64,000 nt of DNA, taken from NCBI GenBank assembly GCA_016219965.1, contig JACRJM010000007.1, positions 62,001-126,000 on the forward strand, read 5' to 3'. How positions within the stretch are numbered: the stretch's first letter is position 1; every line of letters begins with the position of its first letter. The notes beneath the pieces were generated by a model. That model was given only the letters and a program-made list of their open reading frames with translations. It did no database searches and was not told the DNA's origin. The translations under genes were made by a program, and so were the position numbers. Shown here piece by piece: positions 28,455 to 47,967 of this stretch. Origin of the DNA: Candidatus Schekmanbacteria bacterium (GTDB lineage: Bacteria; Schekmanbacteria; GWA2-38-11; J061).

Positions 28455-29417
28455 ATGAACTGGGATGGACAGGGAGTAATATTAGCTGCAGGGGTCGGCG
28501 AGAGGGTTAAATCAACCGGACTGCCTAAGTTGAGACCAATGCTGCCAATCGGGAATAAGCCTATAATGCAGCACCAGATTGAGAGCATGAAAAAACTCGG
28601 CATAAATGATATTATCATAGTTGTTGGATATCAGAAGGATCAGATCATTGATTTCTTTAAAGACGGCAGCCAGTTAGGAGTTAAAATAAAATATATAGAG
28701 CAGGAAAAACTTTTGGGGATAGCCCATGCAGTCGGGCAGCTTGAGCCTTATATAAAAAAGCCTTTTATATTATTTCTGGGAGATGTCTTTTTCTATCCTA
28801 AAAACTGGGAATCTCTAATAGATATTTTTGAAAAGCAGAATGCAACGTCTGTTTTAGCAGTTAAAAAAGACACTAATCCAAAATTCAAAGGTCTCCATTT
28901 CGCAGTGCTTCTCCATGATAGCGGGTTAGTAAGAAGGGTTATTGAAAAGCCAAGACACACGGTAAGCCCTTTAAAAGGATGCGGTATATATGTTTTTAGT
29001 ATGTCAATTTTTGATGCAATAAGAAGAACTCCAAGAACTGCGATGAGAGATGAATATGAAATTACGGATTCGATTCAGATATTGATAGATGATGGTTATC
29101 CAATCTACAGCGCCGAAGCAGTAGATTGGTATGTGAATGTATCAAGCCCTTCTGACCTGCTGCTTTGCAATCTGAAATATCTGGCACAAAACAAGGTTCA
29201 GAATATAATCGGAGAGGGGACAATGGTCTGCCCTGATTCTATTATAGAAAATTCAGTGATTGGTAATAATGTAGTTATTGAAAAATCTCTTAATATAAGA
29301 GAGTCAATAGTTTTTGATGATGTTAAATTAACTGAAATCAAGGAGTATAATAAAGTGATTATTATCCCTAATGGAGAAATCCCCTGTCAGATAGATGAAA
29401 GCAGGTTATATGAGTAA
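28455..29417 (+). CDS. Sugar-1-phosphate nucleotidyltransferase (second of a tandem pair)
   Basis: A 320-aa paralogue of the preceding gene: ILAAGVGERVKSTGLPKL, RPMLPIGNKPIMQHQI, FLGDVFFYP, then RRTPRTAMRDEYEIT and ILIDDGYPIYS. The C-terminal beta-helix start is VCPDSIIENSVIGNNVVI. The signature lysine of KPLLP is arginine here (RPMLP), which may change substrate preference. AAAGGTGA lies upstream of the ATG. The next gene begins inside its last codons. Whether the two make different nucleotide sugars or a hetero-oligomer is unknown. Confidence 0.87.
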   Translation: MNWDGQGVILAAGVGERVKSTGLPKLRPMLPIGNKPIMQHQIESMKKLGINDIIIVVGYQKDQIIDFFKDGSQLGVKIKYIEQEKLLGIAHAVGQLEPYIKKPFILFLGDVFFYPKNWESLIDIFEKQNATSVLAVKKDTNPKFKGLHFAVLLHDSGLVRRVIEKPRHTVSPLKGCGIYVFSMSIFDAIRRTPRTAMRDEYEITDSIQILIDDGYPIYSAEAVDWYVNVSSPSDLLLCNLKYLAQNKVQNIIGEGTMVCPDSIIENSVIGNNVVIEKSLNIRESIVFDDVKLTEIKEYNKVIIIPNGEIPCQIDESRLYE

Positions 29418-30801
29418 GGTCTTGTTAATATCACCACCCTGGTGGGACGTATACGGAAAAGTGAATATAAAAAATGTACCATGGGGGAGTCCTCCTACAG
29501 GGCTTGCATGTATTGCAAGCTATTTAGAAAAACATGGAATAAGTGTGCGATTAGTTGACTCCACCTTTTGCCCAAGAGGATGGGAGGAAGTCAAAGATAT
29601 TATAAAGAAGGAAAATCCAGATTTTGTTGGTATTACTTCTACAACCCCGGAGATTATAAATGCCCAGAAGGTAGCTAAGATTGTAAAAGAGAATAATCCC
29701 AATGCAAAAGTTGTCCTAGGTGGGATTCATGCTTCCGCTCTTCCAGAAGAGACTGTATCCAATGAGTATATAGATATAGTCGCTATAGGAGAAGGTGAAG
29801 AGACAATGCTGGAGATCACAGAGGGGAAGCGACTCGATGAAATCAGAGGGATATGTTACAAACAAAATGGAAAGATTCTGAAGACTCCTCCGCGACCTTT
29901 AATTGAAGATTTAGACAGCCTACCCTTCCCCCGTTACGATAAGCTTCCGGTCGAAAGATACGGGAATATGTTTCTTGGCCGATCCATGGGGATAATGAGC
30001 GGCAGGGGATGCCCCTTTCATTGCTCATATTGTTCTGATTATATTGTCCACGGCAGACGTTTTAGGACTCTCAGCGTTAAAAATGTCGTCGACCAGGTTG
30101 AGAATTTAAGGGACACTTATAATGTCAGTTCAATATCTTTTTGGGATGATAATTTTACAGTTAGTCCCAAAAGGGTCTATGAAATCTCTGAAGAGATTAT
30201 AAAAAGAAAACTCAATATAAGATGGTTCTGTATGTCAAGGGTTGATACAGTCTCATATGAGCTGCTTAAAAAGATGAAGGAATCCGGATGTATAATGATT
30301 GGCTTGGGAATCGAATCAGGAGATCAAAAGATACTCGATGGTGTTGGAAAAGGTATTACAATTGAAGGAGTAAAAAGAACTGTAGCATGGTGTAATGAGA
30401 TAGGAATATCCGTGGTAGGATATTTTTTACTTGGACTTCCTTACGATACAGAGGAATCCATGGATAAAACCTTAGCTTTATCCAGAGGATTAAATCTCGA
30501 TGTTGCAATCTTTTCGCTTCTAATTCCTTTCCCTGGGACAGATGTATGGGAAATGGCAAAGGAAGGGAAAGTTCTTAAATGTTTGGCAAAAGATTGGTCA
30601 GAATTTAAGAGATATGGAGACCCGATAATAGAACTTGAACATGTTTCAAAAGAGGTTTTAAAAAAATATCAAAAGAAAGCAATAAAGGGATTCTATCTAA
30701 GACCCAAGTATTTCTGGCATATTTTGAAAAAGACCAAAACCAGGGAAGATTTCATCAGAAACTTCAAAATGGCCATTTCTTTACTGGGATTCATCAAGTA
30801 A
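29410..30801 (+). CDS. B12-binding radical SAM protein
   Basis: A 463-aa protein from ATG 29410 (ATG 29395 is also possible). N-terminal cobalamin-binding Rossmann domain (about 1-135: VLLISPPWWDVYG, PPTGLACIASYLEKHG, VVLGGIHASALPEE), then a radical-SAM core with C201-x3-C205-x2-C208 (GRGCPFHCSYCSDY), ISFWDDNFTVSPKRVYE and MIGLGIESGDQKILDGVGKG. This class performs methylations and rearrangements on unactivated carbons in glycan, lipid and hopanoid pathways. The DxH motif for cobalt ligation is not evident. It overlaps the nucleotidyltransferase by 8 nt, so it likely acts in the same sugar pathway. Confidence 0.92.
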   Translation: MSKVLLISPPWWDVYGKVNIKNVPWGSPPTGLACIASYLEKHGISVRLVDSTFCPRGWEEVKDIIKKENPDFVGITSTTPEIINAQKVAKIVKENNPNAKVVLGGIHASALPEETVSNEYIDIVAIGEGEETMLEITEGKRLDEIRGICYKQNGKILKTPPRPLIEDLDSLPFPRYDKLPVERYGNMFLGRSMGIMSGRGCPFHCSYCSDYIVHGRRFRTLSVKNVVDQVENLRDTYNVSSISFWDDNFTVSPKRVYEISEEIIKRKLNIRWFCMSRVDTVSYELLKKMKESGCIMIGLGIESGDQKILDGVGKGITIEGVKRTVAWCNEIGISVVGYFLLGLPYDTEESMDKTLALSRGLNLDVAIFSLLIPFPGTDVWEMAKEGKVLKCLAKDWSEFKRYGDPIIELEHVSKEVLKKYQKKAIKGFYLRPKYFWHILKKTKTREDFIRNFKMAISLLGFIK

Positions 30802-33615: not shown

Positions 33616-35640
33616 CTACTGTATATAACCAAGTGCCTTTAACTTTTTAAGCATGTTCTCGTCCGCTGTTGAAGTAACTTTGTTAGATTTTGTGCTTAAA
33701 GGTCCTTCATAGGTGTTGATATAATTGAGAGGATTTTTACTAATGAAGCTGGATTTAAAAGCATCTATAATTGTTTTTCCATCCATATCTTTCCCGACAG
33801 GCAACCCCATTGAATATAATATAGTTGGGGTTATATCCAATGTAGTTGGAGCGATGCTTTCAAAGTTGAGAATAAAAAAACATTTTTTTACTAATAATGG
33901 TGTGTTATCGCCAAAAATTGTTTTTGCTGTTTTTTTCAAAACCCTTGCTATTTTAATATCCAAAGCCGGAAATATAAATTTACTTTTTATATTTTTACCG
34001 CTCATCAAAATTATACCTTCATTTGCATGTTCACCTGAAGTATCATCAATGCTTAAAATGTCAGTCAATGGAAATGTTTCACCTGCAATTTTTATATGAG
34101 TTTTATAAAATTCTTTTAGTGCTTCATCATTTGAATAAGCAAATAGATCTATTTTTGAGTCCTCCCAGCGTTTTTCTTTCATATCTTTTCCACTGATTAC
34201 CTTTGAAAAGATATTTTCGCCATTCTCTAAAATTTTTAAATCAGCCAAGGCCTTCATTATTTCGGATTTAATTCTTTCTTCATCTTCACCTGGGTTTACT
34301 ATACCAGTAGTTTCTCTTCCCTTAAGGTTAAGGCAAACCCCTTTTATCTGGTAATTCTTTTCTATCCCTGCACTGAAGGCTTTTGCTTCTGAGAAATCTA
34401 TTTCCTGAAAATTATTTTTAAATGACAAAAAACCTGTTATGTCTAAAATTTTATCAACATCAACAGCAACATGGGGGAAAGTCTGCGCCTGAGCACCGTG
34501 ATCTGATAGAATTATCAACATAGTATTATCATCAATATTTTTTGTTAAATCTCCAATCATCTTATCTACTTCAATATAATGGTACTCAATCACTTCCCCA
34601 TATTTCTTAACATCGCTGTCATTCATCCCCCATATTTTATAATCATATTTTTGAGGTTCCATATATTTCCAAAAATAGTGCTGAACAGCGTCTGTGCTGT
34701 GTGTATATACACCTAAAAAATCTGTCGGGGTTTTCCCTCTCATATAAGATGTTGCTGCGCTCAGCTTTCTTACATCATTCAGTAATTCTTCTTTCACATG
34801 AAAAAGATTGTCCTCAGTTTTTTGAGTTATAAATTTTTTATTCATCTCATCTATATCTTTTTGAATTTCTGACGGATAAGTTTTATCCTTTTCATCTGCT
34901 GTTAACCGGCTTATGACATAACCATTAACTTTTTCTGGCGGAAAAGTAACATACCAATCAATCAAACCTACGGTTTTTTTATTTTCAGAAAGGATATTCC
35001 ATATTGCTTTAACCTTCCTGTGGTAACTTTTTACAGGGACAGATTCATAAGTTCCTGGTTCGCGTACAGTGTGATCAAATACGCCATGTTTTTCTGCAAC
35101 TTTTCCTGTGGCAATAGATGTCCAAACAAGAGGAGAAGTCGCTCTTTCTGCACAGCGTAGTTGTCCCCAGTAGCTCTGGTTAAGTAGCTCCCTAAAAGCA
35201 GGAAGTTCTCCTTTTTCAACTAAAGGAATTAGTACATTCCATGTTGCACCATCAAGACCTATTAAAAATACTTTTGTAGTTTTCGGATCGATATTTGAGT
35301 CTTTGTGAAAACTCATACCCTGATTTATTAAGATAACGCTGAGAACAAAAACAATGAGGCAGAGCAACATAAGAAATAAGGGGATTTTTTTAATTGCTAC
35401 AGGCCTAGTCTCTTTTCCCGGATTTGAAAGAGATCTAAAATATTTTGCAAAAATAATATGGATTATAATTCCGCAAAACGTGAATATAAAACAATAGAGA
35501 GAGATTATATAAATTGAAATTATTGTTTTGTAATACGGGAGTAGAATAGCATCATAAGCATTGATATATGAAATACTGCCCCTGACCCCAAAAAAAAGCC
35601 CGGCTAAGAAAAATAGTAATACAAGTATTAGATTAACCAT
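33616..35640 (-). CDS. Membrane-anchored alkaline-phosphatase-superfamily phosphodiesterase
   Basis: A 674-aa protein. Three hydrophobic segments at about 2-19, 41-65 and 86-106, then an extracytoplasmic type I phosphodiesterase/nucleotide pyrophosphatase domain. Metal-binding D130 is in VFLIGLDGATWN; the nucleophile is T174 in SPLVWTSIATGK; further metal ligands are in GVYTHSTDAVQHYFW and ILSDHGAQAQT. It may hydrolyse or transfer a phospho-group on a lipid-linked glycan. It ends in KKLKALGYIQ, a C-terminal motif shared with 46126. It is the last gene of a minus-strand run. Confidence 0.85.
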   Translation of the reverse strand: MVNLILVLLFFLAGLFFGVRGSISYINAYDAILLPYYKTIISIYIISLYCFIFTFCGIIIHIIFAKYFRSLSNPGKETRPVAIKKIPLFLMLLCLIVFVLSVILINQGMSFHKDSNIDPKTTKVFLIGLDGATWNVLIPLVEKGELPAFRELLNQSYWGQLRCAERATSPLVWTSIATGKVAEKHGVFDHTVREPGTYESVPVKSYHRKVKAIWNILSENKKTVGLIDWYVTFPPEKVNGYVISRLTADEKDKTYPSEIQKDIDEMNKKFITQKTEDNLFHVKEELLNDVRKLSAATSYMRGKTPTDFLGVYTHSTDAVQHYFWKYMEPQKYDYKIWGMNDSDVKKYGEVIEYHYIEVDKMIGDLTKNIDDNTMLIILSDHGAQAQTFPHVAVDVDKILDITGFLSFKNNFQEIDFSEAKAFSAGIEKNYQIKGVCLNLKGRETTGIVNPGEDEERIKSEIMKALADLKILENGENIFSKVISGKDMKEKRWEDSKIDLFAYSNDEALKEFYKTHIKIAGETFPLTDILSIDDTSGEHANEGIILMSGKNIKSKFIFPALDIKIARVLKKTAKTIFGDNTPLLVKKCFFILNFESIAPTTLDITPTILYSMGLPVGKDMDGKTIIDAFKSSFISKNPLNYINTYEGPLSTKSNKVTSTADENMLKKLKALGYIQ

Positions 35641-35646
35641 AAATTA

Positions 35647-37269
35647 TTAATTGATTACTGCCTTTTCAGTCTTTAAATCTCCCCAAAACTCTGTTACGAA
35701 TATATTTCTCGGCAAAGGTTTGTGGTCATATTTAGTGTTTAAATCATAAAATAAAACATAATTTCCAATTTGCTTTTTAAAATATTTAACACCATCTTTT
35801 TTTAACATAGATTCGAAACTATTCAGATATGTTTCTCGAATGCTATAAATATAAAAAGGATTTTTTAAGGACATTACATAATCAAAGTATTGTGGATATT
35901 TGTCCCTTCCCCAAAGCGGATAAATTATTATGGATTCGTTAGCTCTAAAAGTTATTTCATAAGCCAACCAGAAACTCGCATACCCTCCTTGTAGATTAAT
36001 TGATTTCAAATAGTTTATCAAGGGTTCCTTGTCGTCATGGAAATGTTTTACTGATAGATTTCTGTTAATAAGCTTAAATTCTTTATAATAGAAATTATAT
36101 TTTTCAATACCTAAACTCAATAAAATAATTGATAAAGTTACAATAGCAATCCATTTGTATTTTTTCTTTAGCTCAAAATAAAATATGCTTATAATAACTG
36201 GCAGAGAAGTATATATTGGTAGTAAAAGTCTTGTCCTTAGCTGTATGTCTGGATTGACTGGAGTAAGTATAAAAATAATTGGGACAAAGATGAATTGAAG
36301 GATAATTATAAACTCTTTTGAAACAGTGTTGTCGCTACCGACAAACAGGGACTTAAAATCTTTCCTGAAAAAATAAAAGCAAAAGGCAATTGATACAAAA
36401 ATAAGAAACAGATAAATATTCTCAAGAGATTGAATAAAGAAACTCTGTTTTTCCAGATACCCTGTCATGTAGGTAAAAAGCTTAAAAAACACAGGAATCT
36501 TTAAGGCAATCTGCCCTAAAGAAACATTCAAAGTTGAAGCTGTAATCGTATAGCTATTGTCAAATAACCTATAATAAAAAACTGGAGAAGCGCCAATCAG
36601 GAAGCCAAAGAAATAAAAAAGATAAGATGTTTTTAAATTTGATAAAAAATATTTTACATTATTAAATTTATATCTGCTGATAAGATATATGAACATTGGA
36701 ATGATGTAGTAAAAGATCATTTCATCTGTCCAATAGCAAAACCCCGTATAGATACCTAATAGAGTTATGTAATATTTCTTATTTTCTTCATTAGCTTCTG
36801 TGTATTTTAGGCAAAGAAAGAAAAATAGAGTTCCTAAAAAAAGATTGCCAATATGACTTCCTGCCTTTGAACTCCACATATTTAAGGCTGATGGTGCGCT
36901 TGCTGACAACAAAGCTGATAAGAAAGCTGTCTTTTTATCAAAAAGCATCTTTACAAGAAAATATTGGGATATAATAAAAAGAATGAAAAGAAGAAGAGGT
37001 GCAAGTTTTAAGGCAAATGGGTTGACTCCAAGTATGAGAAAAAAGAAAGATGCTATAAAAGCCTCAAAACTTCCCCAATATGCTTGTCCATAAAAGTATA
37101 TCGGGAAAGAACCTTGAAGGATATGCTTTGCCATAAGCCCCACAATCCCTTCATCTCCTGAGAAGGACCATGTAGGGTTTAGCAGGATAGGAATTTTAAG
37201 TATTAAAGCTATAATAAGGATAACAGTAATAGACGAGAGATCAGATAATTTGGAATAAGCGGATCTCAA
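35647..37269 (-). CDS. GT-C-type membrane glycosyltransferase (GT39-like)
   Basis: A 540-aa polytopic protein, roughly ten helices. The GT39-like first loop is SFSGDEGIVGLMAKHILQ, then FPIYFYGQAYWGSFEAF, a pattern I recognise in many bacterial dolichyl-phosphate-mannosyltransferase-like proteins. The donor is likely a polyprenyl-phosphate hexose. The start is TTG 37269, overlapping the upstream TGA as TTGA. The C-terminus (about 400-540) is soluble and includes YFDYVMSLKNPFYIYSIRE. Confidence 0.83.
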   Translation of the reverse strand: MRSAYSKLSDLSSITVILIIALILKIPILLNPTWSFSGDEGIVGLMAKHILQGSFPIYFYGQAYWGSFEAFIASFFFLILGVNPFALKLAPLLLFILFIISQYFLVKMLFDKKTAFLSALLSASAPSALNMWSSKAGSHIGNLFLGTLFFFLCLKYTEANEENKKYYITLLGIYTGFCYWTDEMIFYYIIPMFIYLISRYKFNNVKYFLSNLKTSYLFYFFGFLIGASPVFYYRLFDNSYTITASTLNVSLGQIALKIPVFFKLFTYMTGYLEKQSFFIQSLENIYLFLIFVSIAFCFYFFRKDFKSLFVGSDNTVSKEFIIILQFIFVPIIFILTPVNPDIQLRTRLLLPIYTSLPVIISIFYFELKKKYKWIAIVTLSIILLSLGIEKYNFYYKEFKLINRNLSVKHFHDDKEPLINYLKSINLQGGYASFWLAYEITFRANESIIIYPLWGRDKYPQYFDYVMSLKNPFYIYSIRETYLNSFESMLKKDGVKYFKKQIGNYVLFYDLNTKYDHKPLPRNIFVTEFWGDLKTEKAVIN

Positions 37270-38963
37270 TAAGTTACTCCGGCAGATAACGGGATAAGTT
37301 CAAATCTTTGTGTTTTTTCATTCTTACGATACAAATAATAACTCATGGAAGGAAAGTCATTCATCAATTCTATGTTTTTCCTGCCAAGATCCCTTGCGTA
37401 TATAACATCAGTATCTAATTCCGGTGAGTTATACTGGAATCCTATACTGTAATTAGTCGCCGATGTATCAATAAAAACCACTGCATTATGAATTTTAAGT
37501 TTTTCTACTGATTCATACAATTTTTTATCTACTCCAAAATAGTCAGAATATTCATTAAGAAGTTTTGGCAAAGAAAAGCTAATCATAAAAATAATGCTAA
37601 TTGAGATTATTAACATTATGGCAATTTCACAAGATTCTTTGCATATATAACTTTTTTCAGCCATTTTCTCAGGGATGCATAAAACTCCTCTTGCTGTCAG
37701 CAATACAAGAAAGGGCATAGAAGAATATAAGAATCTCGGACCGAAGGTCATATAGGGGAAATAATAAAAAAAATAGAATATTAAAAGAGAGATTGAACTT
37801 AAAATAAAAAGTTTATCCCAGTGATTTCTTTTATTTTTCAAAAAGAAAAATATAAATATAAATGTTAAGGATGGGATAGGCCATTCAAAGAGATATTTAT
37901 TTATGGCATAAAGGTTATTGAGAGTATTAAAAAATCCCTTGAGCGGAGTATGCTTTAAACCCTCAGAAGGGATTTCAACAAATCCAAAGAGATTGCTTTT
38001 ATTTTCATAGACATTGTAGCCAAACAGCAGAGGGTTTCCGTTAGTTAAATAATTATAAGTCAAAAGAACAAAAAACATCAGTGAAAATCCCAGAGCAATT
38101 GATATGAAGGCTTTCCAAAAGTTTTTATCTCTCAGAAAAATGTACAATAAATACACCATAAAGGGAAATCCTATAGCAACAACTTCCAGCGGTCTGATAT
38201 TCAGGGCAATTCCCAGAGCGAGTCCCGAAATAAATGCAGGGATAGGAGAAGAAGTTTTTATCATCTTAATAAAATACAGTACAAAAAGCAGGATAAAAAA
38301 CATGGTTGATGCATGGTTCATATACTCTGAGGACATGAAGATTAGAAAGGGAGAAGCAGTGAAAAGAAGAAGGCTTAAGTTTGATGTTTTCAAATCATAA
38401 ACTTCTTTGCCTATTTTATAAAGAACAATTGCTGAAATAGCCCCGAAAATTGGATTAATTAACCATGGAGCATTGAACAAAAGTCCAAGCATCAAGAAAA
38501 AGGAATGGGCCGGTGGATACTGCGAATACCATTTATTATTATCTATTATATAAAGGAAACGGAAAAAATCCTTATGAACTGGAGGTGATGTATATAAGTT
38601 GCCGGATAAAAATATTTTAGCCTGAAACAATTGGCAAATACTATCCTGAATATGGGGAATATGCTCAAAAATCAATAAAGAGATTAGGTTACTGGAAAGG
38701 AAAATAATGACTATTGACACAAGTATGATGTAACGAGATTGAAAATATTCTTTTAGAATCTTTGAAAGAAATAATGGATATTTATCTTTTGGGAACTTTG
38801 AAAGTACTATAAATAATAAAACAAGAGCAGTAGAGCCAAGAACAAATTGCTTAGGAGTTCTTTCCATCCATGAGTAAAGGTAGCTTTTATCCTTTGATAG
38901 GAAAATGCTGAATGGAAAAATAGATATAATAAAAATACAAAACGAAATCCCTTTTGTAATCAT
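37266..38963 (-). CDS. GT-C-type membrane glycosyltransferase
   Basis: A 565-aa polytopic protein with about twelve helices. The first loop has HIPHIQDSICQLFQAKIF, with aspartate in the GT-C position, and WYSQYPPAHSFFLMLGLLF; GLALGIALNIRPLEVVAIG follows mid-protein. The C-terminal soluble part is short (about 480-565) and contains VVFIDTSATNYSIGFQYN. It overlaps the next gene by 4 nt (TTGA) and follows the spermidine-synthase-like gene by 16 nt, so 41394-33616 is one minus-strand unit. Confidence 0.82.
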   Translation of the reverse strand: MITKGISFCIFIISIFPFSIFLSKDKSYLYSWMERTPKQFVLGSTALVLLFIVLSKFPKDKYPLFLSKILKEYFQSRYIILVSIVIIFLSSNLISLLIFEHIPHIQDSICQLFQAKIFLSGNLYTSPPVHKDFFRFLYIIDNNKWYSQYPPAHSFFLMLGLLFNAPWLINPIFGAISAIVLYKIGKEVYDLKTSNLSLLLFTASPFLIFMSSEYMNHASTMFFILLFVLYFIKMIKTSSPIPAFISGLALGIALNIRPLEVVAIGFPFMVYLLYIFLRDKNFWKAFISIALGFSLMFFVLLTYNYLTNGNPLLFGYNVYENKSNLFGFVEIPSEGLKHTPLKGFFNTLNNLYAINKYLFEWPIPSLTFIFIFFFLKNKRNHWDKLFILSSISLLIFYFFYYFPYMTFGPRFLYSSMPFLVLLTARGVLCIPEKMAEKSYICKESCEIAIMLIISISIIFMISFSLPKLLNEYSDYFGVDKKLYESVEKLKIHNAVVFIDTSATNYSIGFQYNSPELDTDVIYARDLGRKNIELMNDFPSMSYYLYRKNEKTQRFELIPLSAGVTY

Positions 38964-38979
38964 TTTTTAAATATTAGGC

Positions 38980-41394
38980 TTAGGTTGGCTGAGATTTATA
39001 AAATCTTACTAATAAGATTGAAATAACGTATGTAACTGCACCAAAGATTAACGCTAAAGAAAAGCCATAAATAATTGCAACTGTCGTTGATAAAATGGTT
39101 GCAAGAACTGAAGTAGCTCCGTTAATCCCCCATACCCACGGTATGATTTCAGGAGAATCATTTTCTAATAGTTTTATCCCTAAAGGGAATGGCATTCCCA
39201 TAAAAAATCCTAAGGGAGCTAATAATCCAACAGTTATGATTATTTTATAGAGTATATCTATCCCCAGGAAATATCCCATTATTTTAGGAAGTATGAATAT
39301 GTAAAGCAATACTATCAGCACTACTGACATCAGAATTATTTGTAGTTTATTTTTGATGGCTATTTTATTAAAATATTCTGTTGAGAAGCTTCCCAAACTG
39401 CTAAAAAGAAGAAGGGAAAAAAGAAAAACTGAAAAAGAGTATAAAGGGTGTCCGAGAAAGAGTATAAACTGCTGAATCAGGGAGATTTCAATCATCATGA
39501 ATCCCAAACCTAAACAGGCAAAATACAAGAGTAGCCTTACCTTCCCTTTGAATTTTTTTATTTCATTCTTCTTAAAAAGCAGAAGCGGTCCAAATATAAA
39601 TATTATGGATAGAATAGTAATAATGATTAACAGTGTCCCAAGAACCGTAACAGCTCTCAAATGAATTGACATCATCCCCTGAGATAAATTTAACTTATAA
39701 AAGTTTTTGATTTTTAGCATATGGAAGAAAAATGGCCTGTCATCTGTTGGCGGAGATATGTCAATGGGAAATGAGTCAAAAAAACTATTCAAATTCTTAG
39801 CATAAATAAGATTTTTAAAACTTTCTTCATTGCAAGTTCTCGGCGTATAGACTATTTCAAATCCTAATTTACTACAAAGGTCTTCAATTACATTTATTTC
39901 TTCATCTCCAAATGCTGATTTTTTCATTATAAATGTGGCTACACCATCAGGGACTCCTTCGAAGTTCATAAAATGGGATTTTTTAACAACCATTATATGT
40001 TTTGATGGATCTTTAACACCTGCATCCTCTAAAGTTTTCAGTCCTAAGGAAACTAACCTAAGAGTTTCTCCCGGTAGTCCGGTGAAAAACCACCTTGACA
40101 TGGTTAAAACACCATTTTCTGCAAGATGGTCATAATAAGAAGCAAAAGCCTCTTTGGTGTAAAGATTATTTTCAGTTAATATAAAGGCGCCTGCAGAGAT
40201 TGCAGCCCATGAATCCACAAGGGACAATTGTATTAAATCGTAATTGTCCTGGCTTCTTGAAATATAACTTCTCCCTTCATCTTTTATTATTTCTACTTCT
40301 TTTCTGTTATAAAGATTACCAGTAAACTCCTTATATCTGTTTTTTACGACATCAATAATATTAGGATTAATTTCAACACCTGTTATTTTCTTTGATCCAA
40401 AAGAGAAAGCAGTTAAGACGTCTCTTCCCCCACCTGGTCCTATTATTAAAACCTTTGGATTTTGTTTTAAGTAATACGCTAAAGCCGTTATATCATAAGA
40501 AAGGAATTTAATTTTTTCAATGTCTCCATCAAACTCAACAATTGGAGTCCCCGCAGAGGCATCCTGTTCTATCCACATCTCTTTTGGTTTAAAACCTTTA
40601 AACGTATTGCTCAGTCCCCAGCCAAAAGGCTTGTTAGTTTCTCCTTCAAAAGGAAAAGATGAGTACACAGTTATCCTTGCAAGTGGATTCCACTTCTCAT
40701 AGATGTAACCATATTCTTTATAGGCTTTTGTATATTTAATCTTGAGAGGGTTTTCAATAATACCATAGATTAAAAAACTGATAGAAAAAACAGTTAGTCC
40801 TATGGATAACAAAAATAACCTTTTATTATCTGATGCAGAGCAGAAAAACACAGAAGCAATAGATCCCAAGAGGGCTACAAAAATAATCGCGTTGGGAGCA
40901 CTAATGTATGAAAGAATTGGTATTAATGATATGCATCCTAGGCTTGCCCCTAAAAGGTCAGAGAAATAAAGCTTGCTTATATGCTTGAAGTTGGAGGCAA
41001 AAGTCAAAGATACAATTAAACCGCTTATGAAAAAGGGAATGGAAATTATAAAGTAGATTATTAAAAACATAAAAAAAGTCTTTGTGTCGAATTTCAAAGA
41101 AAAAGGCAAGTTGATATAAACTATGAAGGATATTAAAAGCGATACAGGAAACATAAGGGATGATAAAGCTAAAAATTCTGGTGTTCTCTCATTGATTAAA
41201 CGGTCTTTTAAGATATATATAATAATTCCACTGCAACTCATTCCAAAGAGTGCCAAGGATATAGCCATGAAGGCAAAATGATACCACATTGTAACGGAGA
41301 AGATTCTGCTTAAAGTTACTTCTAAGAAAAGAGTTGAAAAACAGATAAGGAAAATCCCGAAAAGTATTTTTTTAAGGGGCTTTTCAGTATTCAT
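38980..41394 (-). CDS. Membrane-embedded spermidine-synthase-like protein (paralogue 1)
   Basis: An 804-aa protein. N-terminal block of about six helices (10-215), then a spermidine-synthase-type Rossmann domain (about 230-540), then about six to seven helices to the end. The SAM-binding-type loop is VLIIGPGGGRDVLTAF (315-330), followed by the acidic E341 in GVEINPN and IKDEGRSYI. The DP-x-GP active-site segment of soluble SpeE is absent; the region reads LVDSWAAISAGAFILTENNLY. It may be a membrane aminopropyl- or methyl-transferase for a lipid or glycan. First in a minus-strand run. Confidence 0.8.
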   Translation of the reverse strand: MNTEKPLKKILFGIFLICFSTLFLEVTLSRIFSVTMWYHFAFMAISLALFGMSCSGIIIYILKDRLINERTPEFLALSSLMFPVSLLISFIVYINLPFSLKFDTKTFFMFLIIYFIISIPFFISGLIVSLTFASNFKHISKLYFSDLLGASLGCISLIPILSYISAPNAIIFVALLGSIASVFFCSASDNKRLFLLSIGLTVFSISFLIYGIIENPLKIKYTKAYKEYGYIYEKWNPLARITVYSSFPFEGETNKPFGWGLSNTFKGFKPKEMWIEQDASAGTPIVEFDGDIEKIKFLSYDITALAYYLKQNPKVLIIGPGGGRDVLTAFSFGSKKITGVEINPNIIDVVKNRYKEFTGNLYNRKEVEIIKDEGRSYISRSQDNYDLIQLSLVDSWAAISAGAFILTENNLYTKEAFASYYDHLAENGVLTMSRWFFTGLPGETLRLVSLGLKTLEDAGVKDPSKHIMVVKKSHFMNFEGVPDGVATFIMKKSAFGDEEINVIEDLCSKLGFEIVYTPRTCNEESFKNLIYAKNLNSFFDSFPIDISPPTDDRPFFFHMLKIKNFYKLNLSQGMMSIHLRAVTVLGTLLIIITILSIIFIFGPLLLFKKNEIKKFKGKVRLLLYFACLGLGFMMIEISLIQQFILFLGHPLYSFSVFLFSLLLFSSLGSFSTEYFNKIAIKNKLQIILMSVVLIVLLYIFILPKIMGYFLGIDILYKIIITVGLLAPLGFFMGMPFPLGIKLLENDSPEIIPWVWGINGATSVLATILSTTVAIIYGFSLALIFGAVTYVISILLVRFYKSQPT

Positions 41395-41824
41395 TTATTC
41401 TGGTATTTCTTTTCAAATTGTAAGTTACCTTCTTTTATGTTAGATTTTTAACATAAATGGACGTTCGTTTATTCATAATGAATTTTTCTACTTTAATTTT
41501 GTTATCCTTTTATCTGTTGCCTATATATTTATTCATTTTCATACACGGAGAACGCAATTAGATTTTATCATAAAGAAATTATAAATCATAGAAATAATCC
41601 AAATGTCCTTGTATTTATCTTACCAAAAACATTTTTTTTCCTGTTAGCTATCATCTACGATATATCTGGTTTTTTAAGAGTCCTAACAAATTGAATCACT
41701 TTATTAATTTGACAAAAACCAAGAGGATTTTTAGAAAAATAATAATTGATGAACAGACCAAAGAAGGTCTAAAAACCCTTGCTTATATCCAGTAAAAATA
41801 TTTATCATACAATTGGTTCTTATA
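41395..41824. other. Intergenic region with coding debris
   Basis: Divergent gap of 430 nt without a credible gene. An uninterrupted plus-strand frame of 57 codons at 41521-41691, ending at TGA 41692-41694, reads FILPKTFFFLLAIIYDISGF in its second half, a membrane-helix-like tail. A neighbouring frame reads TKTKRIFRKIIIDEQTKEGL up to a stop near 41796. Neither has a start codon or ribosome site in a sensible place; they may be the decayed 3' end of a membrane or GT gene. TTGACA occurs at 41709-41714 but without a good -10. Confidence 0.4.
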
Positions 41825-43438
41825 ATGAATACCTATAAAAAATATCTCTTAATTTTATGCTGCCAAATTATTATTCTGTTTGTTTTCATATATAAAACGG
41901 ATTTATATGAAAATGCAGGCTTCCCTCTTGATGACGCATGGATTCATCAAAGCATTGCAAAAAATTTAGGAGAGCACTTTGAACTTTCATTTAACCGGGG
42001 GGAATTAACAACCGGTTCAACCAGTTTACTGTGGACAGTTATCCTTGCTCTAAACTTTGCATTTTTTAAAGTAAATCCTGTGTATTATACATTAGCAATT
42101 AACATCCTACTATATTTCCTCACAGGGTTTTTTCTATATAAATTACTTAAAGAAGAAACAGATGAGTTAACTACATGTATCATTGTAATTCTATTTTCAA
42201 TTACCGGTAATGTACTTTTTTTTATGCTCTCCGGAATGGAAGTATTTTTATTTTATTTTCTTTCAATTGCTTCAATTTATTTTTTTTCAGAGAAAAAATA
42301 TATTATCACCGGTTTATTTTGTGGGTTCTTAGCATTAACCAGACCTGAAGGATTAGGTCTCTTTCTCATCTTAACAATAATAGGAATATACAACCTAATT
42401 AATAAAAAAGAAGAGAAAGGAATAATATTTTTAATTATACTCCCTGCAATTTTTTTTGGCATATCTGCGTCTATAAATTATTATATAAGCGGCAGTTTTC
42501 TCCAGAGTACATTTATTGGGAGGAGATGGCTCTATGAATTGCATGATAAATCTTTTTATTTGGATTTAAACAGGGCATGGGAATTTATATGTGCATGGTA
42601 TTTCAGGATAAAGCAATATACCTTTGGAATCAATGAATCAGGAAGTTTGCTGAAAAACTTATTTATAAATGGAGAAAATTATCTTCTTTTTTTCTTCCTT
42701 CTGATCGGATTTTCAGGAATTATAAAAGACGGATTATTCAGCAAAGGGTCTAAAAAAAAAGGAAGTATCTTTCTTCTATTCATATGGTCTTTAGGATTAA
42801 ACTTATTATATATTATTTTTCTTCCTGCTTTGGGGCATGCAGGCAGATACCAGCCCCTAAATTACCTTCTCCTGTCCCTATCTATGATTTTGGGAGCCAA
42901 ATTTACAATTGAATGGCTTATTAAGAAGCGGAAAATTCATACAGCAGCAATGTCATTTGTATCCTTAATATTAACGTTTATTTTTTTGAATAACTCTTTA
43001 TTCTGGTCAGACGTAACAAAGGTTAGCATATTCCATATCAACAATACTCACAGGGAAATGGCATTATATTTAAAAAAATATATTCCCGCAGATGAAAAGG
43101 TTGCAGCCTTTGATATAGGTGCCATTAAATATTTTTCGAATCATAATATCGTTGACCTCGGAGGATTGATAGATAGATGCTTTATACCCTATCTATTATC
43201 AGGAAATCCAGCTCCATATCTGAAGAGCAAGGGTGTTAAATATATTGTACTGCCCTACCTGTATAACGAGAAAACAGAAATAGGTTGGAGATTAGGCCTT
43301 TTCAAAGAAAGTAGTAAAATTAAATTAATAAAAATGAAAGAGTTTGGAACAACAAAGGAGATCTGGGAATCAGGAATAGATGCTCTATATCATGCTGATC
43401 CAAAACAAGTGTTATTAAAAATAGAATATTCTAATTAG
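41825..43438 (+). CDS. GT-C-type membrane glycosyltransferase
   Basis: A 537-aa polytopic protein with about ten helices. The first loop has the acidic pair in FPLDDAWIHQSIAKNL and the TTGSTSLLWTVIL segment; GFLALTRPEGLGLFLIL is the mid-protein signature. The soluble end holds EKVAAFDIGAIKYFSN and HNIVDLGGL, shared in plan with 31858. ATG 41825 is preferred over TTG 41813. It is a single-gene unit enclosed between the two spermidine-synthase-like genes and overlaps the second one tail-to-tail by 8 nt. Confidence 0.82.
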   Translation: MNTYKKYLLILCCQIIILFVFIYKTDLYENAGFPLDDAWIHQSIAKNLGEHFELSFNRGELTTGSTSLLWTVILALNFAFFKVNPVYYTLAINILLYFLTGFFLYKLLKEETDELTTCIIVILFSITGNVLFFMLSGMEVFLFYFLSIASIYFFSEKKYIITGLFCGFLALTRPEGLGLFLILTIIGIYNLINKKEEKGIIFLIILPAIFFGISASINYYISGSFLQSTFIGRRWLYELHDKSFYLDLNRAWEFICAWYFRIKQYTFGINESGSLLKNLFINGENYLLFFFLLIGFSGIIKDGLFSKGSKKKGSIFLLFIWSLGLNLLYIIFLPALGHAGRYQPLNYLLLSLSMILGAKFTIEWLIKKRKIHTAAMSFVSLILTFIFLNNSLFWSDVTKVSIFHINNTHREMALYLKKYIPADEKVAAFDIGAIKYFSNHNIVDLGGLIDRCFIPYLLSGNPAPYLKSKGVKYIVLPYLYNEKTEIGWRLGLFKESSKIKLIKMKEFGTTKEIWESGIDALYHADPKQVLLKIEYSN

Positions 43439-45836
43439 CTCTCAAAATATTTTTACTGAACAACAACATTCCTGCCATTCCCAAAAGATAAATTATAGCC
43501 GCTATGTAAAAAACTGCATTGAATCCAAGGTTCATTGCTATAAAAGGCGCAAGAATTGCACCGATTACTGATGCACTTGCATTGATTCCCCAAGCCCAGG
43601 GAACAAAGTCATCATATTTTTTGCCAACTATTTTTAGACCTGTTGGGAATGGGATTCCCATTAAAAACCCCGAAGGGAACAGAACCAAAGCTGTTATTAA
43701 AGAGCGCACTAAAAATGAATAACTAAGGAAGGTATTAAATATTTTCCCAAGAAAAAGTATATAACCTAAAATAAATATAGAAAGCAAAACTATAGGAATT
43801 ATTATTAACGACTTGCAAATCTCAAATTTTTTAGAATACAGGCTCCCTACGCCTGAGGCTATAAGAAGGATAAGAAGTGTAATAGCAATAGAAAAAGATG
43901 GATGACCTAAAAACAAAATAGCTTTTTGCAGAAAAGCAATTTCTATAAACATATATCCTGCGCCTAATCCCAGAAAATAGATAATTATAGAGATATTGTC
44001 TTTAATTTGGAGCCCATCCTTTTTTAAAATATATAAAGGGAGAAGGATAAAGAGCAATGTAAGCATAGTTAAGACCGCCAGCATTCTTAAGAAAGTGTTA
44101 AAGATTGGGGTATGAGAACCCCATTTGTCTTGAACAAAGAAAAAGGGAGATGTATCTGAAACCGGCGAAATATTTTTTGGATAAGATTTAATAAATTCTT
44201 CTGATTTTCCTACAGACCAATCTTTATAATAGCGGAGATAATCATTTTCTATAGTCGAGTGTGGTTTATATAGAACTTTATTTTCACTAAAAAAAGATTT
44301 AGGATATTCTCCACCCCAAAGCTTATAAAATAAAGGGAAATATATCCCATACATCTCCTTCGTGAAATGGCTTTCCACCATATCAATTTCATCATTTGTG
44401 AATGGAGTATTTTTAATCATTATATTGACAAATCCACAGCTTTCAGAAACGATTAGATGTCCTTCCGGATTATTGATTCCTAAGTCTTTTAATACATCGA
44501 ATGCCATAACGAACAGGCGGATTCCTGCACCCCAATTAGGGTATGTGATAGAAATAACTCCATTATCTTTTAGATGGGCGAAATAATTTCTTAAAGCTTC
44601 TGTAGTATACAAGTAACTTTCAGATAGGTTCTGAGTCCCGCCAAAAGAAGCAATATATGTATCAACTCCGGTTAATTGAATTATGTCATATTTTTCTCTG
44701 GAAAGTTTTGTAAAATGTCTTCCTTCAGCATGAAATATATTAACGTTATTTCTTTCATAAGGACGTCCTGCAAAATCCTTAAAATTGTTTTTGACAATTT
44801 CTATCATCCGTTTGTTAATCTCAACTCCCGTTATTTTCTTTGATTTAAAATGTAACGCAGTTGCAACATCAGGACCTCCTCCTATGCCAATAATTAAAAC
44901 TTCCGGTTCATTTTTTATCCAGTAAGGAATCCCAAGTATGGTCTGATCTGTGAAATCTGCTTTATCAAAATCTTTATTAAAGTTAAGGATAATTGAAGGG
45001 GCATCGCCATCTTGAAAAACCATCTTATACGCTATTTTTTCAGGTAAATAGATATAGTCATCTTTCAAATATGCAACGTCAACTCGAGCTATTGGATCCC
45101 ATTTCTGATATTCATGTTTTCTCTCAGGATGAAATCTATTCATCTGTTTTAGTTCTTTTGTTACAATAGGAACAATTTTATCGTAGAAAATTGAATTTTG
45201 CATAGTGAGGGCCACTACTATCGTGTAAATAGCAATGAGCAGAGAATATTTTTTGGAAAGCTTAAATGAAAATATCAGTGCGACAAGGCTTGCAGTTATA
45301 GAGACAATGAATAAATTAGTTTCTCCGCTAAAATCCGTCAAAGTTTTTAAAATTACAACGCTTCCAATTCCTGAGCCAACAAGGTTTACAAAGTAAAGCT
45401 TATTAATTTCTTTTACCCATAGTGACAGTATCAGGGATACACAAAGCCCGGCAAAAAAGAATGGAAGTCCGAGGATAACTGAAAGAAAAGTAAGCAATCC
45501 AAAACTTTCATGACTGCTTACCTGGTTAAAAATAGGGATAGCAGCAAAAAACAAAAGTATACTCAAAGAAAATCCAATCGAGCTACCTACAAGACTTTCG
45601 AACACTCTTTTTCTAAAAAAAGAATGAAATACAGAAATACACGCCCCGCTTGCACCAAAACCAAGCAACGCCAGGCTTATAACAAAATAGACAGATAACG
45701 GCCATAGAAGTATTGAAGCAATTCTTGTCTGTAATATTTCTAATGTTAAAGTAGCTACTGAGAGAAGAAAGAGTCCTAAATACAGGGATATATCTGCCTT
45801 GAATTGTCTGTCCTTAATATTTTCCATAGTTTCCAT
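43431..45836 (-). CDS. Membrane-embedded spermidine-synthase-like protein (paralogue 2)
   Basis: An 801-aa paralogue of the protein at 38980: about six N-terminal helices, a spermidine-synthase-type domain with VLIIGIGGGPDVATAL, GVEINKRMIEIVKN and FHAEGRHFTKL, then about six to seven helices. The equivalent of the catalytic segment reads LTGVDTYIASFGGTQNLSES, again without DP-x-GP. Related phrases occur at the same places in both proteins (for example MGIPFPTGLKI here and MGMPFPLGIKL in the first). Start ATG 45836; ATG 45827 is an alternative with GGAAACT just upstream. Confidence 0.8.
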   Translation of the reverse strand: METMENIKDRQFKADISLYLGLFLLSVATLTLEILQTRIASILLWPLSVYFVISLALLGFGASGACISVFHSFFRKRVFESLVGSSIGFSLSILLFFAAIPIFNQVSSHESFGLLTFLSVILGLPFFFAGLCVSLILSLWVKEINKLYFVNLVGSGIGSVVILKTLTDFSGETNLFIVSITASLVALIFSFKLSKKYSLLIAIYTIVVALTMQNSIFYDKIVPIVTKELKQMNRFHPERKHEYQKWDPIARVDVAYLKDDYIYLPEKIAYKMVFQDGDAPSIILNFNKDFDKADFTDQTILGIPYWIKNEPEVLIIGIGGGPDVATALHFKSKKITGVEINKRMIEIVKNNFKDFAGRPYERNNVNIFHAEGRHFTKLSREKYDIIQLTGVDTYIASFGGTQNLSESYLYTTEALRNYFAHLKDNGVISITYPNWGAGIRLFVMAFDVLKDLGINNPEGHLIVSESCGFVNIMIKNTPFTNDEIDMVESHFTKEMYGIYFPLFYKLWGGEYPKSFFSENKVLYKPHSTIENDYLRYYKDWSVGKSEEFIKSYPKNISPVSDTSPFFFVQDKWGSHTPIFNTFLRMLAVLTMLTLLFILLPLYILKKDGLQIKDNISIIIYFLGLGAGYMFIEIAFLQKAILFLGHPSFSIAITLLILLIASGVGSLYSKKFEICKSLIIIPIVLLSIFILGYILFLGKIFNTFLSYSFLVRSLITALVLFPSGFLMGIPFPTGLKIVGKKYDDFVPWAWGINASASVIGAILAPFIAMNLGFNAVFYIAAIIYLLGMAGMLLFSKNILRAN

Positions 45837-46125: not shown

Positions 46126-47967
46126 ATGAAGAAAAAAATATTACTTCCGGCCTATTTGGGACTTATAATCTCATTTGGCATTGCAATTATACTTTTGCTT
46201 GTTCGTTTCATGCAAGGTAATTTGGGTAAACCTTTTAATCTCTTATCAAACTACCACTCTGTTCTCCCCAAATCTTTAATAACCGGATTCAGAGTTTATC
46301 TTGGTTATAATGGTCAATTGTTAGAAAGAATATTCCCTTCAAATGGGATATTTCAATATTTCCTATTTGTCATTTCAACTTTATCAGCTTTTACATTAAT
46401 TGGGTTTCTTGTGGGAATTATACTTGGATTAGTTTATTCCATTATTTGCATTTTAACAGGGATACGCGGGAAACAAAAGTTATCTTCAATGAACTTTGAG
46501 TGTAAGAGTTTTTGGCTAATCCTTGTTTTGCTTTTTTCTATTAACTTATCTACAGGCTTCTTACAATCAAGGAATGAGGGATTAAACATCATACTCATTT
46601 CCATTGATACACTTAGAGATGACCACTTAGGATGTTACGGATATTCAAGGAATACTACTCCGAATATAGATCGGTTAGCTGGAAAAAGTATTATTTTTAA
46701 AAATGTGTTTGCTGCTGCTCCCTGGACACTTCCATCACACGTATCAATTATGACCTCCCTTTATCCCAGCCTGCACAGGGTATCAGGAGCCAAAGACAGA
46801 ATCGATGATACACGGGTTACAATTGCTGAAGCACTCATAAGAAATCAATATACGACAGCAGGAGTAATAAGTGTGTCATGGCTTAAATCTTTCTTCGGAT
46901 TTAATCGAGGATTTCAGGAATACATAGAAGATTATGAAAGTAAAGCTACTCCGAATCCAACAGCAGAATCGATAACTAAAAAAGCTATTTTACTTCTTGA
47001 AGAACTTAAACAAAGCGAAAAGTTCTTTTTATTTATCCATTATTTTGACGTTCATGCAACATATGATCCTCCGTCCCCATATGACAAAATATTCAGCCCT
47101 GAATTCAGTTCAAAAAAAACTGATATTTCAAGAGATGATTTAATACAAGAATCTTTGAGACTCAGATCCCCAAAGGAGACGATTTCCAGGGAAGACCTGG
47201 AACGTATAATAGCACTATACGATGGAGAAATAGGATATGTTGACTCTCAAATCGGAGTTCTCCTGAACACTTTGGATTCTATGGGTTTGCTCAATAAAAC
47301 TGCGATAATCTTAACTTCCGATCATGGAGAAGAATTTAAAGAACATGGTTCAATGAGCCATGGGGCTTCTCTATATGACGAAGTTCTAAAAGTCCCTCTC
47401 ATTTTATACAATCCTAAAAATACAAAAGGAATTAAGGTCCAGGAACCTGTGAGTACAATTGATATCGCTCCAACTATTTTATCAATTTCAGGATCACCAA
47501 TTGAAAAAGAATTCCAAGGGATTGATCTAATGAATATCGTTAAGAATAACATGAATAATCAACCACATGAAGATAGGGCTCTGTATAGCGAAGTTAATAT
47601 TGTCGAGAATGAAAAAGTAGCAATCAAGGCTATTCGAAAAAAAAATAACAAGCTGATTAAATCCTATTTAAAAGCAGATGAAATTCAAGATGCAATCAGG
47701 AAGACTGGAAATAAAGGAGAATTCTTTCCACGGCCTCTTATTGGTGAAGAGTTTTATGATTTAAATGCTGACAAAAGTGAACAAAAGAATTTGGTCAATT
47801 TAAAAGAATATATGGGTGATTATTTAGAAATGAAAAGTCAGCTTACTGATTGGACAAAAAACATGGATATGGCAGCCTCTTTATTGCCTTGGTCTGCAAA
47901 AAAAGAAACCGTCAAACTGGATAAAAAGGGTTTAAATGAATTACGGTCCTTAGGCTATATAAAATAG
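46126..47967 (+). CDS. Membrane-anchored sulfatase-like protein with Thr nucleophile
   Basis: A 613-aa protein with four or so N-terminal helices (7-27, 75-110, 129-143) and a sulfatase/alkaline-phosphatase-superfamily domain. Metal ligands: D161 in ILISIDTLRDDHLG and TSDHGEEFKEHG. The nucleophile position is T201 in APWTLPSHVSIMTS, where true sulfatases have the formylglycine Cys/Ser of C/S-x-P-x-R; Thr is the nucleophile in phosphoethanolamine and phosphoglycerol transferases. It therefore more likely moves a phospho-group. It ends ELRSLGYIK. Single-gene unit between divergent and convergent neighbours. Confidence 0.87.
   Translation: MKKKILLPAYLGLIISFGIAIILLLVRFMQGNLGKPFNLLSNYHSVLPKSLITGFRVYLGYNGQLLERIFPSNGIFQYFLFVISTLSAFTLIGFLVGIILGLVYSIICILTGIRGKQKLSSMNFECKSFWLILVLLFSINLSTGFLQSRNEGLNIILISIDTLRDDHLGCYGYSRNTTPNIDRLAGKSIIFKNVFAAAPWTLPSHVSIMTSLYPSLHRVSGAKDRIDDTRVTIAEALIRNQYTTAGVISVSWLKSFFGFNRGFQEYIEDYESKATPNPTAESITKKAILLLEELKQSEKFFLFIHYFDVHATYDPPSPYDKIFSPEFSSKKTDISRDDLIQESLRLRSPKETISREDLERIIALYDGEIGYVDSQIGVLLNTLDSMGLLNKTAIILTSDHGEEFKEHGSMSHGASLYDEVLKVPLILYNPKNTKGIKVQEPVSTIDIAPTILSISGSPIEKEFQGIDLMNIVKNNMNNQPHEDRALYSEVNIVENEKVAIKAIRKKNNKLIKSYLKADEIQDAIRKTGNKGEFFPRPLIGEEFYDLNADKSEQKNLVNLKEYMGDYLEMKSQLTDWTKNMDMAASLLPWSAKKETVKLDKKGLNELRSLGYIK

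Follow-up and report, generated by a model that had tools for sequence, protein, structure and literature searches.

What do two large membrane proteins with a spermidine synthase (SpeE)-like domain do on either side of a GT-C gene? The question is raised by a 64,000-nucleotide stretch of Candidatus Schekmanbacteria DNA (the window), for which an earlier note had described two paralogues with a helices-Rossmann-helices layout and had proposed that they form a membrane pair adding aminopropyl or methyl groups to a lipid-linked glycan, while the GT-C enzyme transfers it. Both genes, protein A (38980..41394, minus strand, 804 aa) and protein B (43431..45836, minus strand, 801 aa), are intact ORFs, and their products are end-to-end paralogues with 31% identity (E 6e-114). 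ORF, Pfam, AlphaFold2 and Foldseek analyses indicate that A is composed of an N-terminal unit of seven transmembrane (TM) helices (residues 4-214, 40753..41385), a soluble SpeE-fold domain (residues 215-574, 39673..40752) and a C-terminal 7-TM unit (residues 575-797, 39004..39672). B shares this architecture, with the corresponding parts at residues 16-214 (45195..45791), 215-576 (44109..45194) and 577-800 (43437..44108), all of them, as in A, on the minus strand.

The Pfam Spermine_synth match covers only the middle of each protein, at residues 302-432 of A (E 5e-10) and 302-429 of B (E 1.5e-8), each exceeding the curated threshold, and B shows in addition weak, sub-threshold generic methyltransferase matches at the same position. 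AlphaFold2 predicted for A and B alike seven long helices, a Rossmann-type domain and seven further long helices (A: pLDDT 91.7, pTM 0.93, from a 79-sequence alignment; B: pLDDT 88.5, pTM 0.92, from a 56-sequence alignment). The N-terminal TM helices of A span residues 4-35, 38-61, 71-94, 104-134, 136-163, 166-188 and 191-214, and hydropathy of the 79-sequence alignment also delimits this unit. The top matches listed by Foldseek against the PDB were spermidine-synthase-type throughout for both proteins, including 1uir and 1inl, with 1uir on top (E 6.9e-8 for A and 3.3e-7 for B); these searches are dominated by the SpeE domain and hence uninformative on the fold of the TM bundle. An internal repeat of the N- and C-terminal TM units gained no support from profile alignment, in which the hhalign score was no better than that of column-shuffled controls, although the PRK03612 TM profile matches both TM units of a relative in this genome (see below). 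Full-length alignment, Pfam and AlphaFold2 bear out the layout described before, and the proteins are indeed membrane spermidine-synthase-like: the SpeE fold is membrane-embedded, and the close relatives are uncharacterised. No bacterial study of a 7TM/SpeE-fold/7TM architecture was found in the open-access literature (subscription papers excepted).

The residues of the active site bear on the kind of group that may be transferred. In characterised aminopropyltransferases the D/E of the motif hhhhGGG(D/E)G(G/A), which marks binding of decarboxylated SAM (dcSAM), is highly conserved (PMC11107197). The alignment of relatives places a GxGGGRD motif here in A, which reads GPGGGRD (residues 319-325, 40420..40440, minus strand), and sequence comparison places GIGGGPD in B (residues 317-323, 44868..44888, minus strand). 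Position 322, the D/E site, is occupied by G in 72, A in 5, S in 1 and T in 1 of the 79 aligned sequences, and by an acidic residue in none. The DP-x-GP segment of SpeE is missing from both paralogues, as had been noticed from the sequence (A = VDSWAAISAGAFILTENNLYT, B = VDTYIASFGGTQNLSESYLYT), and the first Asp (D394) is all that is retained of the D-x-x-DP-x-GP gate. The gate is replaced by a D394...T413 segment in A (40156..40215, minus strand; 79-sequence alignment) and by a D392...T411 segment in B (44604..44663, minus strand; sequence comparison). D394, the catalytic-type Asp, is conserved in 75/79 sequences and G402 and T413 in all 79; the ribose-binding acid E341 is E in 73 and D in 5 more, R375 is invariant (79/79) and D278 is also retained. 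B differs from the family in having Leu for H39 and Asn for R434. Thus A and B resemble SpeE (PF01564) in their Rossmann-type fold with an N-terminal beta region and in keeping the catalytic-type Asp and the ribose-binding acid, but they lack the GGG(D/E)G acid and the DP-x-GP loop and carry 7+7 TM helices. They score 39.6 (A) and 34.9 (B) bits against the cut-off of 260 bits of the SpeE NCBIfam equivalog.

A related combination is known from NHMT, a fungal 7TM methyltransferase that has lost the D/E of GGG(D/E)G (I322). NHMT joins 7 TM helices to a SpdS-like domain, resides in the ER and methylates the N-terminal histidine of secreted LPMOs, for which its 7TM part is required (PMC10349129); because NHMT does so, SAM-based methyl transfer by a SpeE fold is established. 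A and B likewise have 7 TM helices ahead of a SpdS-like domain and a non-acidic residue at the dcSAM position, and an action directed to the outside would be a further likeness, since NHMT works from the ER and its substrates are secreted (PMC10349129). NHMT, compared here with A and B by description, differs in being fungal and in having no second 7-TM unit; according to its authors, its 7TM sequence is found only in fungi (PMC10349129). Judged by these residues, methyl transfer from SAM is a better fit for A and B than aminopropyl transfer is.

It is quite improbable that A and B are membrane aminopropyltransferases that move an aminopropyl group from dcSAM to a polyamine or a lipid-linked glycan. 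Their fold is that of spermidine synthase, and their genome encodes a SpeD homologue (L149:8411-8884; C4:452530-452865) while no soluble SpeE was found in it. However, the GGG(D/E)G acid is missing in 79/79 relatives and the DP-x-GP loop is lost, where a genome lacks SpeE, its SpeD homologue is often an ornithine or arginine decarboxylase (PMC10407285), and the predicted topology (see below) sets the domain outside. The proposal of aminopropyl or methyl addition is plausible in its methyl half, on an envelope substrate, and unsupported in its aminopropyl half. The argument that dcSAM is absent cannot be used against aminopropyl transfer, since SpeD is present and dcSAM may exist. The SpeD of this genome, which has no polyamine genes beside it, may be either a neofunctionalised decarboxylase or a partner of a membrane SpeE-like protein.

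The gene between A and B (41813, or 41825, to 43438, plus strand) encodes a GT-C-like membrane protein with no Pfam match and a weak match to NF047440. A GT-C gene is indeed flanked by both paralogues. The coordinated strand order attributed to the three genes did not hold: the GT-C gene diverges from A across a 418-bp gap and converges with B, the ends of these last two overlapping by 8 bp. Being divergent and convergent, the three are unable to share one transcript and do not form an operon. On the minus strand, A opens a tight run of genes (gaps of 16, -4 and 6 bp), in which it is directly followed by a PMT_2 (GT-C) gene (37266..38963), a second PMT_2 (GT-C) gene (35647..37269) and, at the end, the gene of a membrane type I phosphodiesterase of the alkaline-phosphatase superfamily (33616..35640), the three being assigned by Pfam. 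At least six GT-C-type genes (at 31858, 35647, 37266, 41813, 51674 and 56421) lie in this 64-kb glycan island; a GT-C neighbour is thus to be expected and means little alone. The island also holds a membrane sulfatase/phosphoethanolamine-transferase-like gene (46126-47967), divergent from B, whose product is a second enzyme of the alkaline-phosphatase superfamily, and a B12-binding radical SAM gene (29395-30801), possibly a second route to methylated sugars.

Comparison with relatives separated the arrangement of A from that of B. Candidatus Schekmanbacteria GWA2_38_11, of the same order (G003/L037 = L052), has an A orthologue with 78% identity and keeps in order the divergent GT-C gene (65%), A, a downstream GT-C gene (72%, homologous to 35647) and the phosphodiesterase gene (61%). 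A homologue of the 37266 gene is missing at this locus, and a different PMT_2 gene stands at the place of B; B could nonetheless be encoded at another site of that genome, whose assembly is ~70% complete. No A/B-family member was found in two other close relatives (G001, 97% complete, and G002, 99% complete), and no B orthologue among the 60 relatives searched, the best match having 34% identity. Two Schekmanbacteria genera share the link of A to GT-C genes, and what is conserved is a divergent GT-C gene, A, a GT-C gene and a phosphodiesterase gene, rather than A-GT-C-B.

The family to which both proteins belong is large. One conserved peptide pattern, searched in 84,980 species genomes, retrieved at least 582 relatives, and the best 80 of these come from Acidobacteriota, Chloroflexota, Cyanobacteriota/Melainabacteria, Bacteroidota, Pseudomonadota, Myxococcota, Planctomycetota, many candidate phyla and Nitrososphaerota. 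The members from Nitrososphaerota, ammonia-oxidising archaea (L114, L116 and L126), form one tight clade. A quick LG+G4 tree of 89 members shows two large halves that set A and B apart with 99% SH-aLRT support; A is joined by its orthologue and by a protein from Poribacteria, and B, a divergent member of the other half, is on a long branch that was flagged by a program warning. On this tree A and B appear as separately inherited members of anciently separated family halves. The tree rules out that they are a recent tandem duplicate, the exact placement of B being unsure owing to its long branch.

These data leave it very improbable that A and B are a membrane pair working with the intervening GT-C gene. 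Their adjacency in this genome would suit such a pair, but they stand on opposite sides of the well-supported split, their strands are divergent and convergent with respect to the GT-C gene, B has no orthologue in the 60 relatives, and in GWA2_38_11 another GT-C gene lies beside A and its GT-C neighbour where B would be expected. We consider the pair, and with it the A-GT-C-B system put forward in the earlier note, largely refuted.

The genome of the window encodes a third full-length copy of the A/B family (L007:7196-9655), next to a GT-C gene of YfhO type. It also encodes two SpeE-like membrane proteins of a different build (L009:6017-9019 and L008:7445-9808). The first of these two, a 1000-aa protein, matches the model of fused MFS/spermidine synthases (NF037959) with 144 bits; neither A nor B matches this model at E 0.01. 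Fused MFS/spermidine synthases resemble A and B in joining a TM bundle to a SpeE-like domain and differ in the order, which is TM-TM-SpeE. The gene of the 1000-aa protein is followed by three large GT-C-like membrane genes (L009:6017-14816, C15), the first of which (L009:9032-10984) has TPR repeats. The other protein (787 aa, TM-SpeE-TM) is encoded directly after a radical-SAM-like gene (L008:6529-9808, C10), and both of its TM parts match the TM profile of PRK03612 (NF002956), which also weakly matches the C-terminal TM units of some distant A/B-family members. PRK03612 proteins share with A and B the order of 7 TM helices and then a SpeE domain, with the same positive-inside pattern, but they have canonical GGGDG and DPD motifs and no C-terminal TM unit; A is not listed among the matches of the model and B reaches 31.1 of the 472 bits of its cut-off. 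We also detected, in Deltaproteobacteria bacterium OFTM73 (L098:6734-12430), a fused MFS/SpeE-like gene (961 aa) that adjoins a full-length A/B-family member, with a second A/B-family-like gene closer to the start of the locus.

A check of co-occurrence with GT-C genes had been proposed in the earlier note, and its outcome does not make GT-C linkage the rule. No general neighbour of A/B-family genes was found among ~78 loci (flanks up to 10 kb). A GT-C gene is directly adjacent in ~5 of them, namely L052 (the A orthologue), L083 (YfhO), L084 (GT87), and L098 and L118 (both scored by eye); L061 has a further adjacent GT-C gene, TMEM260-like. Adjacent positions are richer in GT-C genes than distant ones (6/136 vs 2/513, p 0.0015, partly scored by eye and with the orthologue of A included). 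A GT-C enzyme as obligatory partner of the family was rejected, since most loci have none, and it is this outcome that the earlier note had named as refuting its proposal.

The commonest specific neighbour is a protein-L-isoaspartate O-methyltransferase (PCMT) gene, often on the same strand and overlapping or a few bases apart. Where the N-terminus is readable, the adjacent PCMTs carry a signal peptide, a lipobox or a membrane anchor in 15/15 cases (14 plus L192, the PCMT beside the A/B-family gene of G048; that of L121 is alike by eye), vs 6/23 with a signal or anchor among PCMTs elsewhere in 60 relatives (Fisher p 4e-6). Exported PCMTs adjoining a membrane SpeE-like gene were found at L106:4321-5064, L122:11137-11943, L128:4254-4985, L129:6648-7370, L131:9042-9998, L041:9266-10006, L164-L172 and L192, and in one candidate phylum a PCMT is adjacent at 7/10 A/B-family loci. 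The PCMT-linked members placed on the tree all belong to B's half of the family, no such link being seen in the half of A, and neither of the two PCMTs encoded in the window's own genome has a signal. Being exported, the adjacent PCMTs would need an extracytoplasmic supply of SAM; for exported isoaspartate methyltransferases, no description of a SAM source was found in the open-access literature.

The side of the membrane on which the SpeE-fold domain lies was predicted from hydropathy and charge averaged over 79 sequences, which indicate 7 TM helices before the domain and 7 after it, with the K/R-rich short loops all on one side. With loops delimited by the AlphaFold2 helices, the mean K+R content per sequence is 17.7 in loops predicted inside vs 5.1 in those predicted outside, and the positive-inside rule (inside K+R > outside) is obeyed in 79/79 sequences (A 23:5, B 21:5). 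By this bias the N- and C-termini would lie in the cytoplasm and the domain across the membrane from them; the two TM units, taken independently, yield the same outward orientation. The domain of A and B is thus predicted outside the cytoplasm, on the same outer face as the GT-C active sites. The exported PCMTs beside members of B's half of the family are a second indication of this placement. The same positive-inside pattern over 7 TM helices is seen in PRK03612-type proteins, whose GGGDG motif is canonical, so either they also face outward or the rule misleads for the superfamily.

Were the topology prediction wrong, A and B would be cytoplasm-facing SAM methyltransferases acting on a cytoplasmic or inner-leaflet substrate, e.g. 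a polyprenyl-linked sugar. SAM is synthesised in the cytoplasm, and such enzymes would have no supply problem. We regard this alternative as unlikely, given that the positive-inside rule favours an outward domain in every one of the 79 sequences and from both TM units independently, and that the PCMT partners are exported.

The explanation that we prefer, with about an even chance of being right, is that A and B are outward-facing methyltransferases that use SAM, and not dcSAM, on an envelope substrate, in the case of A probably a glycan or lipid-linked sugar. The outward SpeE-fold domain would bind SAM rather than dcSAM and methylate envelope molecules on the outer face. Computation gave, for both proteins, the architecture and fold, the absent dcSAM acid, the retained catalytic-type Asp and the positive-inside topology; the SAM co-substrate, the methyl transfer and the substrate class are what we infer. 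GT-C enzymes and membrane phosphodiesterases of the alkaline-phosphatase superfamily act at the outer face, and the neighbours of A presumably do so at this locus, which is why the substrate suggested for A is a glycan or lipid-linked sugar produced by the GT-C and phosphodiesterase genes next to it. It is the neighbourhood, in a region crowded with glycan genes, that suggests this assignment; B has no substrate indication beyond its glycan-island setting.

With the domain outside the cytoplasm, SAM must get to the outer face, and to our knowledge these bacteria have no established SAM pool beyond the cytoplasm. The TM bundle of A and B may, speculatively, be the route across the membrane. The TM region of the fused MFS/spermidine synthase of this genome (L009:6017-9019) matches MFS_1 (E 1e-8), and both faces of the bundle carry invariant polar and Pro/Trp residues (R30, E636, Y143, P752, W753 and N758), which together make the TM part a candidate SAM path. 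In plants, SAM for the methylation of glycans in the Golgi lumen can be supplied by the GoSAMTs, SAM transporters that belong to the major facilitator superfamily (PMC9946043). The GoSAMTs and the Golgi-lumen pectin methyltransferases are likened to A and B by logic, not sequence: where glycans are methylated beyond a membrane, SAM has to be carried through it, but in the eukaryotic Golgi transporter and enzyme are separate (PMC9946043). A self-supplying extracytoplasmic methylation, in which the 14-TM bundle moves SAM and the SpeE-fold domain, often together with an exported PCMT, methylates envelope glycans or proteins, is a tentative possibility.

The same observations could be read in another way, with A and B being primarily MFS-like transporters that export SAM, a SAM-derived or a polyamine-like compound, the SpeE-fold domain serving for binding or delivery, and the exported PCMT and other envelope methyltransferases using the exported product. 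The 14 TM helices, the residues invariant on both faces, the MFS_1 match of the related fused protein and the example of the plant GoSAMTs (PMC9946043) are consistent with this, as is the operon-like link to an exported PCMT, which must need SAM outside. It is nevertheless unlikely: the catalytic Asp and the remaining active-site pattern are retained, which would be needless in a mere binding domain, and the Pfam search gave no direct sequence link of the TM parts of A and B to MFS families.

Returning to outward methyltransferases, the family-level picture, that of a large, misannotation-prone membrane family linked to exported PCMTs in many lineages, is of more interest than the local locus. 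It would correct the label 'spermidine synthase', as given by the Pfam match alone, in hundreds of genomes. Exported isoaspartate methyltransferases occur in many bacteria, though SAM is made in the cytoplasm, and the A/B family, which is very widespread, has a predicted outward SAM-type domain and adjoins exported PCMTs, is a concrete candidate for their SAM source. If the self-supplying reading is true, the family would be a bacterial counterpart of the plant Golgi SAM transporters and lumenal methyltransferases.
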